40,847 nucleotides of DNA from Dehalococcoidia bacterium (GTDB lineage: Bacteria > Chloroflexota > Dehalococcoidia > DSTF01 > WHTK01). Location of the stretch: positions 1 through 40,847 of the forward strand of contig DATLYJ010000016.1 of the NCBI GenBank assembly GCA_035574915.1, written 5' to 3'. Positions 12,016 to 15,496 of this stretch are shown here, in pieces. The translations under genes were made by a program, and so were the position numbers. Numbering within the stretch: position 1 is the first letter of the stretch; each line of letters starts with the position of its first letter. The notes under the pieces are model-generated. The model worked only from the letters and a program-made list of their open reading frames with translations. It made no database searches and was not told the origin of the DNA.

Positions 12016-12021
12016 TACAAT
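12016..12021 (+). promoter_or_regulatory. -10 box TACAAT, probable leaderless promoter
   Basis: TACAAT (5 of 6 matches to TATAAT) ends eight bases before the GTG start at 12030. Transcription would start at or beside the start codon. No TTGACA-like box is seen 16-18 bp upstream, where the hairpin at 11986-12010 lies instead. Confidence 0.5.
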
Positions 12022-12029
12022 AGGAATCC

Positions 12030-13364
12030 GTGGACCCGCCGCGCATTCAGTATGCCCGCACCAAGGACGGCGTCAGCATCGCCTACTACTCCTCGGGGAC
12101 GGGTTTCCCGCTCGTCGTCATGCCCTCGCTCCCGGTCAGCCATATCGAGCAGGAGCTGGGCATCCCGGAGTGGAGGGCATGGTACGAGAAGCTGGGACGC
12201 GGCCGGCGCGTCATTCGCTACGACGCGCGCGGCACCGGACTGTCCGACCGCGGTCGCATCGAGCGCGACGTGGACGCCATGGTGGCGGACCTCGAAGCGG
12301 TGGTCGACCGCCTTGGCCTTGAGCGCTTTGGCCTCCTCTCGATCTTCTACGCCGTGCCGCCGGCGATCGCCTATGCCGCGCGCCATCCGGAGAGGCTTTC
12401 CCATCTGCTCCTGTTCTGTGGCTTCGCCCGCTTCGCCGACCTGCGGTCGCCCCAGTTGGCGGCGGTGCGCAGCCTCCTCGACCGGGACTGGGAGCTTTAC
12501 ACGGAGACGGCCGCGCACCTGGTCCTGGGCTGGTCGCTAGGCGAGCCGTCGCGGCGGTTCGCCAGGTTCATTCGCGAAAGCGTCTCGCCTGAAGCGATGG
12601 CAGCGATCTACGCCGCGGGCTACGACGTCACGGACCTGCTGGCCGGGGTGCAGGCGCCGACTCTGGTGCAGCACCGCAGGGAAATAAGCTGGCTGCCCCT
12701 GGACCTTGGACGGCGGCTGGCGGCCGCGATCCCGGACGCACGCCTTGAGGTGCTCGAGGGCAGTTCCATCGCGCACTACCTCGGCGACAGCGACGCGATG
12801 CTGCGCGGCATCGACTCCTTCCTCGGCGACCGCGGCGAAGAGCGGCCGCTGGACTCGGTCGGAGGCCTGCAGACCATAGTCTTTACGGACCTGCGCAACC
12901 ACGCCGAGATCCTGCGGCGCCTGGGCGATGAGCGCGGGAGCCAGGTGCTTCGTGAGCACGAGCGCATCACGCGCGAATCACTGCGTGCCCACGGTGGCCG
13001 TGAGGTCAAGTCGCTGGGGGACGGGTTCATGGCCTCGTTCTCCTCGGCGCAAAGGGCCCTGGAGTGCGCGATCGACATCCAGCGGCAGTTCGACGCTTGG
13101 AACCGCGAGCACGAGGAAGCGCTCCTCGTGCGCATTGGCGTCAACGCTGGCGAACCGATCGCGGAAGACGACGACCTCTTCGGCGAGTCCGTGATCGCGG
13201 CCTCGCGTATCGCTTCGAGGGCGGCGGGCGGCGAGATCCTGGTCTCGAACGTCGTGCGGGAACTCGTCGCGGGCAAGGGCTTCGCGTTCGCGAGCCGGGG
13301 CGAGGAAGTGCTGCGCGGCTTCGACGACCCGGGGCGCATCTGGGAGCTGAACTGGCATCAGTAG
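12030..13364 (+). CDS. Alpha/beta-hydrolase-like domain fused to class III adenylate cyclase domain
   Basis: Two-domain protein of 444 residues. Residues 1-265 have the alpha/beta-hydrolase fold (YDARGTGLSDR, AIAYAARHPERL), but the nucleophile elbow usually reading GISQGG is SIFYAV, with F106 at the serine position. The acid is also lost (RREI), while H249 remains. Residues 280-410 form a class III nucleotidyl cyclase domain: metal ligands D287 (VFTD) and D331 (LGDG), adenine-specifying K327 and D382, and R393. The transition-state asparagine (VNxAAR) is I389. The first domain is probably a ligand sensor. Output cAMP is plausible but may be low. A paralogue of the first domain follows at 13468. 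Confidence 0.82.
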   Translation: MDPPRIQYARTKDGVSIAYYSSGTGFPLVVMPSLPVSHIEQELGIPEWRAWYEKLGRGRRVIRYDARGTGLSDRGRIERDVDAMVADLEAVVDRLGLERFGLLSIFYAVPPAIAYAARHPERLSHLLLFCGFARFADLRSPQLAAVRSLLDRDWELYTETAAHLVLGWSLGEPSRRFARFIRESVSPEAMAAIYAAGYDVTDLLAGVQAPTLVQHRREISWLPLDLGRRLAAAIPDARLEVLEGSSIAHYLGDSDAMLRGIDSFLGDRGEERPLDSVGGLQTIVFTDLRNHAEILRRLGDERGSQVLREHERITRESLRAHGGREVKSLGDGFMASFSSAQRALECAIDIQRQFDAWNREHEEALLVRIGVNAGEPIAEDDDLFGESVIAASRIASRAAGGEILVSNVVRELVAGKGFAFASRGEEVLRGFDDPGRIWELNWHQ

Positions 13365-13455
13365 GCCCCCCACACGGCCGGCGCAGGGCTGACGACGAGG
13401 GACGACGACCGCGCCCGCGCCGCGCGGCTGGGGGCTCGCCCGGGCGCGAATCCCG

Positions 13456-13461
13456 TAAGAT
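13456..13461 (+). promoter_or_regulatory. -10 box TAAGAT, probable leaderless promoter
   Basis: TAAGAT (5 of 6) ends six bases before GTG 13468, with no Shine-Dalgarno sequence between. An inverted repeat with an 8 bp stem (13410-13417 with 13441-13448) lies just upstream. Position suggests a transcript starting at the start codon. Confidence 0.5.
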
Positions 13462-13467
13462 CGCCTC

Positions 13468-14286
13468 GTGGACCCGCCAACCGTCCGATACGCGCGCTCC
13501 TCCGATGGCCGCGCGCTGGCCTGGGTGATGCTGGGCACAGGGCCGCCGAACGTGTATGTCAGCCCCGTGCCCTGGAGCCACGTCACGGCGTTCTGGCGCA
13601 TACCCGGCTATCCTCAGATGTACGAGGCCGTCGCGGCCCGCCGCACGCTCGTCATGTACGACGCGCGCGGCACCGGCCTCTCCGACCGCGACCCGGACTT
13701 CGGCCTGGAGGCGCGGCTGCGCGACCTGGAAGCGGTCATCGACGCGGCGGGGTTCGATACCGTCGACCTGGCCGGGGCCGCGATAGAGGCCGGTGTGGCC
13801 TGCGCCTTTGCCGTACGCCACCCGGCGCGCGTCCGGCGCCTCGTGCTGCTCGACCCGGTAGCCCGCGGCAGCGATTACATGCAGCAGCCGGCGATCCGCG
13901 CGCTCTCGAGTTACCGCGAGATGCTAGACGAAGACTGGCTGGGGTACCTGGCGACGCTCAGCGCCAGGATCGTCGGCTTCGAACACACGGACCGAGCGCG
14001 GGCGCTGGCCGGCGTCATGGCCGAGGCCAGCTCGCCGGAGGCGATCCGGGTGCACGTGCGGACCCTGCCGGAGTTCGACGTTTCGGACTGCCTGGCCCAG
14101 GTGTCCTGCCCCACGCTCATACTCTGCTTCCCGCAACAGACTGCCTCCTTTCCACACCTGTCACGCGAGTTTGCGGACAAGGTACCGGGCGCCCGGGTAG
14201 CTACGCTGGACGTGCCCCACCGCTTCCCGCTGCAGCCCAGGGCGATAGAGGTGATGGAGGCCTTCCTCTCGGAGACAGACCCTTAG
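13468..14286 (+). CDS. Alpha/beta-hydrolase-like protein lacking the nucleophile
   Basis: Protein of 272 residues clearly paralogous to the N-terminal domain of the preceding gene: both begin MDPP, then YAR and DG, and share YDARGTGLSDR at residues 64-74. The nucleophile elbow reads AGAAIEAG, putting A105 where the catalytic serine belongs. The acid position is FPQQ, and only a histidine (VPHRFPL) remains. It should not be an ordinary serine hydrolase. A ligand-binding or partner role for the cyclase fusion next door is an inference from paralogy and adjacency. It has no cyclase domain of its own. Confidence 0.75.
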   Translation: MDPPTVRYARSSDGRALAWVMLGTGPPNVYVSPVPWSHVTAFWRIPGYPQMYEAVAARRTLVMYDARGTGLSDRDPDFGLEARLRDLEAVIDAAGFDTVDLAGAAIEAGVACAFAVRHPARVRRLVLLDPVARGSDYMQQPAIRALSSYREMLDEDWLGYLATLSARIVGFEHTDRARALAGVMAEASSPEAIRVHVRTLPEFDVSDCLAQVSCPTLILCFPQQTASFPHLSREFADKVPGARVATLDVPHRFPLQPRAIEVMEAFLSETDP

Positions 14287-14541: not shown

Positions 14542-14547
14542 TAATAT
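14542..14547 (+). promoter_or_regulatory. -10 box TAATAT, probable leaderless promoter
   Basis: TAATAT lies seven bases before ATG 14555. It overlaps the alternative upstream ATG at 14546, which argues for the downstream start. The 250 bases before it (14287-14541) are GC-rich and hold no gene or other element I can support. Confidence 0.5.
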
Positions 14548-14554
14548 GCGACCC

Positions 14555-15496
14555 ATGGACTTTGAAGCGTCTCCCGCCATGGAACCGCGCGAGGGCCTTG
14601 CCCGGTTGCTGGACCGGCGCTACATGGTACTGCCCGCAGCGGCCGCGGCAGCGCTTGGCCTGAGCGCCTACGGCGCGGCCCTGATCCTCGGTGCCGCTGC
14701 GGCGCCGCTGGCAGCGGTCGCCGGCATCGCTGCCGGCGCTGGTTGGAGCTGGACCCGTGCGCACCAGCATCGTCACGACGGCTCGCGGGCCAGCCTCGCC
14801 AGGGCCCTGGAGCGCCAGGTCGACAACGGCCGCAAGATATCGATCCAGGACCGCGCGACCGGGCTCCTCCAGAAGTGGTACTTCGATCTCCGCGTCGCTG
14901 AGGAGGTGAGCCGCTGCAAGCGCTACGGTACGCCCATGGCGCTGCTCAGGCTGAGCGCCGGGTCCGGCGCCGAGGAGGACACCTGGGGGACGGAGACCGA
15001 GTGGCGGCTGGCCCAGGAGCTTGCCCACCACCTGAGGGCAGTCGACATCGCGACGCGGGCCGGGCCTCTGGAGTTCCTCGTCTGCCTGCCGCACACGGAC
15101 CTGCGCGGCGTCCAGGCCGCGGCCAGGCGCCTCCTGGCCAGCCTCGAGAGCTGGTCTCCCGGCGTCAGTTACGCGACTTATCCCGAGGACGGCGACGAGT
15201 CCGAAGCGCTGATGCAAGCAGCCCTCGGCCGCCAGTCCCCGCCCGAGGGAGGACCGCCTCCGCACGAAGACGATGCCGCCCCGGCCAGCTACGACGAGGT
15301 CCTTGCGGCGCTGGCGGAGGGGGAGACAGCCGCCGTTGCGGTCGAAGCTCCTGACACGGCCCGGCTCGTGAAGCAGCGGCTGCGGCATGCTGGCAGACGC
15401 CTCGGCCTCAGGGTGAGGGTCTGGGAAGAAGACGGGCGCGTCCTCGTCCGCCGCGAGACAGCCGCCGACTCCGGGCGCTCGACCAACGCTGCCTGA
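14555..15496 (+). CDS. Membrane protein with degenerate GGDEF domain
   Basis: Protein of 313 residues with two alanine-rich membrane helices (about 24-62), a basic linker, a GGDEF-type domain (about 98-205) and a C-terminal 70-residue region of unknown fold. Family hallmarks are DRATGLLQKWYFDLR near 99-113 and LVCLPHTDLRGVQAAARRL near 175-193. The signature GGDEF motif is replaced by GPLEF (170-174), so diguanylate cyclase activity is not expected. However the inhibitory-site RxxD is kept exactly five residues before it (R161-A-V-D164). It may therefore be a c-di-GMP receptor. The start at 14555 is chosen over 14546 because the latter lies inside the -10 box. Confidence 0.72.
   Translation: MDFEASPAMEPREGLARLLDRRYMVLPAAAAAALGLSAYGAALILGAAAAPLAAVAGIAAGAGWSWTRAHQHRHDGSRASLARALERQVDNGRKISIQDRATGLLQKWYFDLRVAEEVSRCKRYGTPMALLRLSAGSGAEEDTWGTETEWRLAQELAHHLRAVDIATRAGPLEFLVCLPHTDLRGVQAAARRLLASLESWSPGVSYATYPEDGDESEALMQAALGRQSPPEGGPPPHEDDAAPASYDEVLAALAEGETAAVAVEAPDTARLVKQRLRHAGRRLGLRVRVWEEDGRVLVRRETAADSGRSTNAA

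Follow-up and report, generated by a model that had tools for sequence, protein, structure and literature searches.

A degenerate alpha/beta-hydrolase module, fused to a class III cyclase and standing alone beside it, as a candidate ligand-sensing input domain in Dehalococcoidia

What becomes of an alpha/beta-hydrolase fold once its nucleophile is gone, and why would such a fold precede a nucleotide cyclase in one gene and stand alone in the next? These questions are raised by P0001 and P0002, two adjacent genes on the forward strand of a Dehalococcoidia contig (the window, i.e. the whole analysed stretch of 40,847 nucleotides). It has been known for two decades that some bacterial proteins join a hydrolase to a cyclase (Rv1900c); to our knowledge, there is no agreed role for the hydrolase part. 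The reading that we regard as reasonably probable is that P0001 couples a ligand sensor to a cyclase and that P0002 is a free input module. The open reading frames, their starts and the motifs shared by the two proteins (the MDPP start and YDARGTGLSDR) match an earlier note made from the sequence alone, and the features of the locus are as follows.

12016-12021 (+): TACAAT, -10-like box lying 14 bases upstream of the P0001 start codon (read directly)
12030-13364 (+): P0001, GTG start, 444-residue fusion of a degenerate alpha/beta-hydrolase fold and a class III nucleotide cyclase
12030-12830 (+): hydrolase-fold domain of P0001, residues 1-267 (Pfam PF00561, 2.3e-7; AF2; Foldseek to esterases)
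12345-12347 (+): codon of Phe106, nucleophile elbow of P0001, Ser in intact relatives (alignment column; beta5/alphaC turn in the model)
12684-12686 (+): codon of Ile219, catalytic-acid column of P0001 (alignment)
12768-12770 (+): codon of Ile247, catalytic His column of P0001 (alignment)
12831-12860 (+): linker of P0001, residues 268-277 (low confidence, pLDDT <50)
12861-13349 (+): class III cyclase domain of P0001, residues 278-440 (Pfam PF00211, 3.6e-17; Ma1120, 2e-29; Foldseek TMt 0.94 to 4wpa)
13456-13461 (+): TAAGAT, -10-like box lying 12 bases upstream of the P0002 start codon (read directly)
13468-14286 (+): P0002, GTG start, 272-residue stand-alone degenerate hydrolase fold
13780-13782 (+): codon of Ala105, nucleophile elbow of P0002 (alignment, model)
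14137-14139 (+): codon of Gln224, acid column of P0002 (alignment)
14218-14220 (+): codon of His251, probably the triad His that P0002 retains (phmmer to Est1, 6eb3; MAFFT has R252 in the column)

Both proteins are alpha/beta-hydrolase folds by their alpha/beta core and nucleophile-elbow topology in the AF2 models, which Foldseek aligns to esterases with a TMt of about 0.8. The models are confident within domains (pLDDT of 91.7 for P0001 and 94.8 for P0002), while the placement of the two domains of P0001, separated by a linker of only about 10 residues, is uncertain (pTM 0.64). The P0001 model retrieved esterases (TMt up to 0.85) and Ma1120, and that of P0002 retrieved esterases together with D14, KAI2 and RsbQ. 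The two proteins share 33% identity over the N-terminal 270 residues (E=1e-37). Upstream lies P0003 (11120-11932), an ordinary hydrolase whose elbow, GVSWGG, is intact; downstream of P0002, a gene at 14546-15496 (+) of the window has a weak GGDEF match (26.6 bits).

The earlier note held that both folds had lost the nucleophile and the acid, and both losses are borne out. A 184-row MAFFT alignment that included intact references has F106, I219 and I247 of P0001, and A105, Q224 and R252 of P0002, in the columns of the catalytic Ser, Asp and His. The structure predictions, which the note had proposed as a check, place F106 and A105 at the turn between beta5 and alphaC (strand 100-105 and helix 106-118 in P0001, strand 99-104 and helix 106-117 in P0002). 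Neither protein displays the Ser-Asp-His triad of a serine hydrolase, and no intact triad was seen elsewhere in the fold of P0001, where His249 lies two residues past Ile247 (Pro at that place in the sister fusion) and the alternative acid site is Cys130. P0002 has neither Ser nor acid and probably keeps a His, since phmmer aligns His251 with the catalytic His of Est1 (6eb3); this residue and Asp129 at the end of beta6 may form a His-Asp pair lacking a Ser.

How general is this loss? Relatives were gathered from the source genome, from 400 genomes of its phylum and about 200 of its class, and from a genome collection; they comprise 182 distinct hydrolase domains, including a small number of other hydrolases encoded in the same genomes. 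A cyclase follows 114 of these domains and a LuxR HTH 22, the rest including stand-alone and unscored cases. When a gap in a triad column is scored as lost, all three residues are lost in about 104 domains and kept in 51, the remainder being mixed. The family-wide comparison that had been suggested for the loss of the Ser was made on a first tree of 160 rows, from which the triad columns were left out: an 82-row clade (SH-aLRT 94) holds 75 lost, seven partial and no intact members, and the intact rows all fall in the other part of the tree, where further losses also occur. A tree with actinobacterial rows contains a 70-row clade (SH-aLRT 88) with 62 lost, eight partial and no intact members, and at least 13 changes are needed on it at the nucleophile column, the number of losses being approximate because the trees were built quickly and many of their branches are weak. 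Judged from these alignments, triad loss is not peculiar to P0001 and P0002 but general in a large clade.

The former active site has also changed in a particular manner. Among 94 non-redundant triad-less rows, apolar or small residues make up 83% at the Ser, 66% at the Asp and 80% at the His column versus 59% over all columns, a pattern that, on this comparison, is not due to chance. When the samples are matched in size, the three columns come 4th, 7th and 15th among 267 in order of variability in the rows that have lost the triad. With the same matching, pocket loops supply 11 of the 25 columns that gained most in variability in those rows (p=2e-5), and lid residues 153-183 supply 10 of the 25 that gained most in conservation (p=5e-5); these p values are descriptive because boundaries were picked after inspection of the data and triad columns are variable by construction. 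Relaxed constraint, too, would be expected to make a former active site highly variable. The cyclase has been maintained in the triad-less fusions, with both metal Asp kept in 71 of 75 and the transition-state Arg in 68 of 75, at least two of the exceptions being gaps at sequence ends.

In P0001 itself, the metal and adenine-specifying residues named by the earlier note (D287 and D331, K327 and D382) and the Ile in place of the transition-state Asn (I389) were all found again, and R393 supplies the transition-state Arg. The Pfam match and the two metal Asp make the domain a class III nucleotide cyclase; the Lys/Asp pair and the Arg are those of a class III adenylyl cyclase, from which it departs at the transition-state Asn. 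This last position is variable across the family (N 31, Q 28, I 21, H 20), is a His in Rv1900c (PMC4886424) and is an Ala (Ala164) in Ma1120, which is an active adenylyl cyclase despite this replacement (PMC4215837). By that precedent, Ile389 is not disabling and gives little information on activity. The genome encodes eight class III cyclase domains above the Pfam cut-off and six cNMP-binding domains, which could be effectors.

Input domains are usually recognised by their re-use on several outputs. Here, class III cyclases, LuxR GerE HTH domains (including a tandem pair on contig C20 of the source genome), Ser/Thr kinases and a kinase-cyclase-AAA_16 assembly all carry the degenerate hydrolase module, and this presence of the same module on different outputs is the pattern of an input domain. 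The fusions with kinases are the following.

L189, 1832-5407 (-): Ser/Thr kinase fusion, three module copies per protein
L185, 2951-6307 (-): Ser/Thr kinase fusion, three module copies per protein
L054, 178-2310 (-): Ser/Thr kinase fusion
L184, 373-5352 (+): kinase, cyclase and AAA_16 fusion

A UvrD helicase fusion in L096 was discarded, as its joined frame spans masked bases. Copy number is high and lineage-specific, with about seven copies in the source genome and 20, 12 and 10 in genomes G344, G291 and G508, respectively, and this is a lineage expansion. Tandem arrangement is seen for 36 of 104 triad-less members versus five of 51 intact ones, an excess that serves as a lead only because the fetched regions were partly selected for tandem copies. 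Two unusual copies were met along the way. An 896-residue frame (L163, 1694-4381, minus strand) reads hydrolase-cyclase-hydrolase-cyclase with full catalytic residues in both cyclases, and is possibly a single-chain cyclase dimer or two genes merged by a lost stop. On contig C179 (L009), a family copy is split over two reading frames, and is likely a pseudogene or an assembly error.

How, then, does P0002 relate to P0001? The earlier description of the two as adjacent paralogues stands as regards paralogy, and they are neither sisters nor recent duplicates. In two trees, P0001 groups with a fusion on contig C14, elsewhere in the genome (SH-aLRT 96 and 95), and P0002 with a fusion on contig C165 (SH-aLRT 95 and 93). 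In the C165 fusion (L004, 1498-2775, minus strand), the hydrolase and cyclase active sites are both lost: the cyclase positions read K, G, E, S, Q, L, so that the metal ligands and the transition-state Arg are missing, and there is no PF00211 match. No cyclase remnant was found downstream of P0002. Since its nearest relative carries a dead cyclase, a series from active fusion through dead-cyclase fusion to free module is suggested by these sequences, and P0002 is more likely to derive from a fusion that lost its cyclase through decay than to have arisen as a partner of P0001. The latter proposal, also made in the earlier note, is unsupported, as the two are not sisters, no conserved instance of the pair was found and a separate -10-like box precedes P0002; a dedicated partnership was dropped as the leading idea, the sisters being different and the same-family genome G465 yielding only one member of the protein family. 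The two boxes belong to a wider trend, TANNNT occurring at -16 to -12 from family starts with maxima at -15 (34 of 158) and -12 (18 of 158), counts that are descriptive because the rows are related. This spacing suggests that P0001, P0002 and family members are transcribed as leaderless messages.

Among known systems, the bifunctional lipase/adenylate cyclase Rv1900c/LipJ has the same domain order as P0001, which is a LipJ-like fusion in the broad sense of an N-terminal hydrolase fold and a C-terminal class III cyclase. The LipJ model (NF058673) is the best NCBIfam match of both proteins, yet the scores of 208.9 bits for P0001 and 67 bits for P0002 stand against a curated cut-off of 800, and P0001 is far from being a LipJ equivalog. 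It differs from LipJ orthologues by Lys327 (Asn in them), by Ile instead of His and by the Phe at its elbow. Four LipJ orthologues above the cut-off (L204-L207) also have a degraded triad, with S/G, S/P and T/A/V in the three columns: acid and His are absent from all and the Ser from two of the four. The closest solved cyclase domain is that of Ma1120 from Mycobacterium avium (4wp8, 4wp9, 4wpa), followed by Rv1900c; Ma1120 likewise lacks the transition-state Asn, its solved constructs comprise the cyclase domain only, and its regulation is not known to depend on a hydrolase fold. Pycsar was rejected: PycC has a class III cyclase domain as in P0001, but the PADLOC match is weak (21 bits) and covers the shared cyclase core only, P0002 has no match, and neither Pfam nor PADLOC finds a cNMP-sensing effector in the adjacent genes that were scanned.

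The nearest parallels for sensing come from the plant receptors GID1, D14 and KAI2 and from RsbQ, in which a hydrolase fold with a lidded pocket senses a small molecule. D14 and KAI2 keep their triad, and we know of none of the four being fused to a cyclase, an HTH or a kinase. The likeness of the P0002 model to D14, KAI2 and RsbQ lies at the level of the general fold. GID1 is a non-catalytic hormone receptor derived from a hydrolase that has lost the catalytic His (PMC3531792).

On the reading that we prefer, P0001 would be a one-component signalling protein whose N-terminal fold descends from an active hydrolase and has ceased to catalyse. The old substrate pocket would take up a ligand, probably an apolar one, whose binding would move the lid and alter the C-terminal class III cyclase homodimer, and the changed output of cAMP (or cGMP) would act on CRP-type effectors. 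P0002 would be the same kind of input module devoid of an output domain, probably after decay of the cyclase in a C165-like fusion; it might serve as a free receptor or a sink for ligand, or be a remnant. The earlier idea of a hydrolase fold turned into a sensor controlling the cyclase holds in kind and indirectly, because triad loss is clade-wide, the cyclase has kept its catalytic residues, conservation of the lid is higher than where the triad is intact, and the module also serves HTH and kinase outputs; lineage expansion, the six cNMP-binding domains and the GID1 precedent back it further. Its mechanism, from ligand binding and lid coupling to the direction of regulation and the identity of the effectors in P0001, is what we infer.

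Could the same observations be accounted for without a ligand? The degenerate fold might be a structural or dimerisation module, or a docking surface for other proteins, that controls the cyclase. Class III cyclases are textbook dimers, the more conserved lid could be an interface, and hydrolase folds of the NDRG family are well-established non-enzymatic regulators (PMC7022630 describes NDRG3). This remains an unlikely explanation, as it does not say why pocket loops gained variability while the rest was kept, nor why the module is used with HTH and kinase outputs.

An improbable reading is that these proteins are divergent enzymes performing chemistry with other residues, for instance a His-Asp dyad. 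P0002 has Asp129 and probably His251, and a review counts LipJ among characterised esterases (PMC10865251) although its orthologues are deprived of acid and His, so that triad loss deduced from sequence may not mean loss of esterase activity, which is the chief caution on the preferred reading as well. However, the pocket loops of triad-less rows show no newly fixed polar residue, the triad positions have become mostly apolar and hypervariable, and in P0001 the elbow residue is Phe and the alternative acid site is occupied by Cys130. The chance that the hydrolase parts are functionless remnants riding on a useful cyclase, with P0002 as a pseudogene-like leftover, appears slighter still. The isolation of P0002 from any recognisable cyclase, the dead cyclase of its C165 relative and the split copy on contig C179 would fit such decay, whereas YDxRGxGxS, D87, W154, R182 and lid positions are conserved across the 94 diverse triad-less rows, and the copies are numerous, often tandem and open, with the module re-used on new outputs.

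To conclude, the ligand-sensor reading of P0001 may extend to a broader picture, to which we would give slightly less than an even chance: in this class of Chloroflexota, a dead hydrolase would be a general input domain whose pocket has diversified and whose lid is conserved, placed on cyclases, LuxR-type regulators and Ser/Thr kinases in up to about 20 copies per genome, related losses being found in actinobacterial fusions including LipJ orthologues. Our literature search found no paper describing this degenerate module and, as far as it shows, what is new compared with known fusions is the expanded, triad-less input module. Annotations as 'lipase' or 'hydrolase' in this hydrolase-cyclase family call for caution. 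A triad-less clade with intact cyclases, and the same module on other outputs, make the sensor hypothesis directly testable and, if true, it would provide a bacterial case of evolution from enzyme to receptor beside that of GID1.
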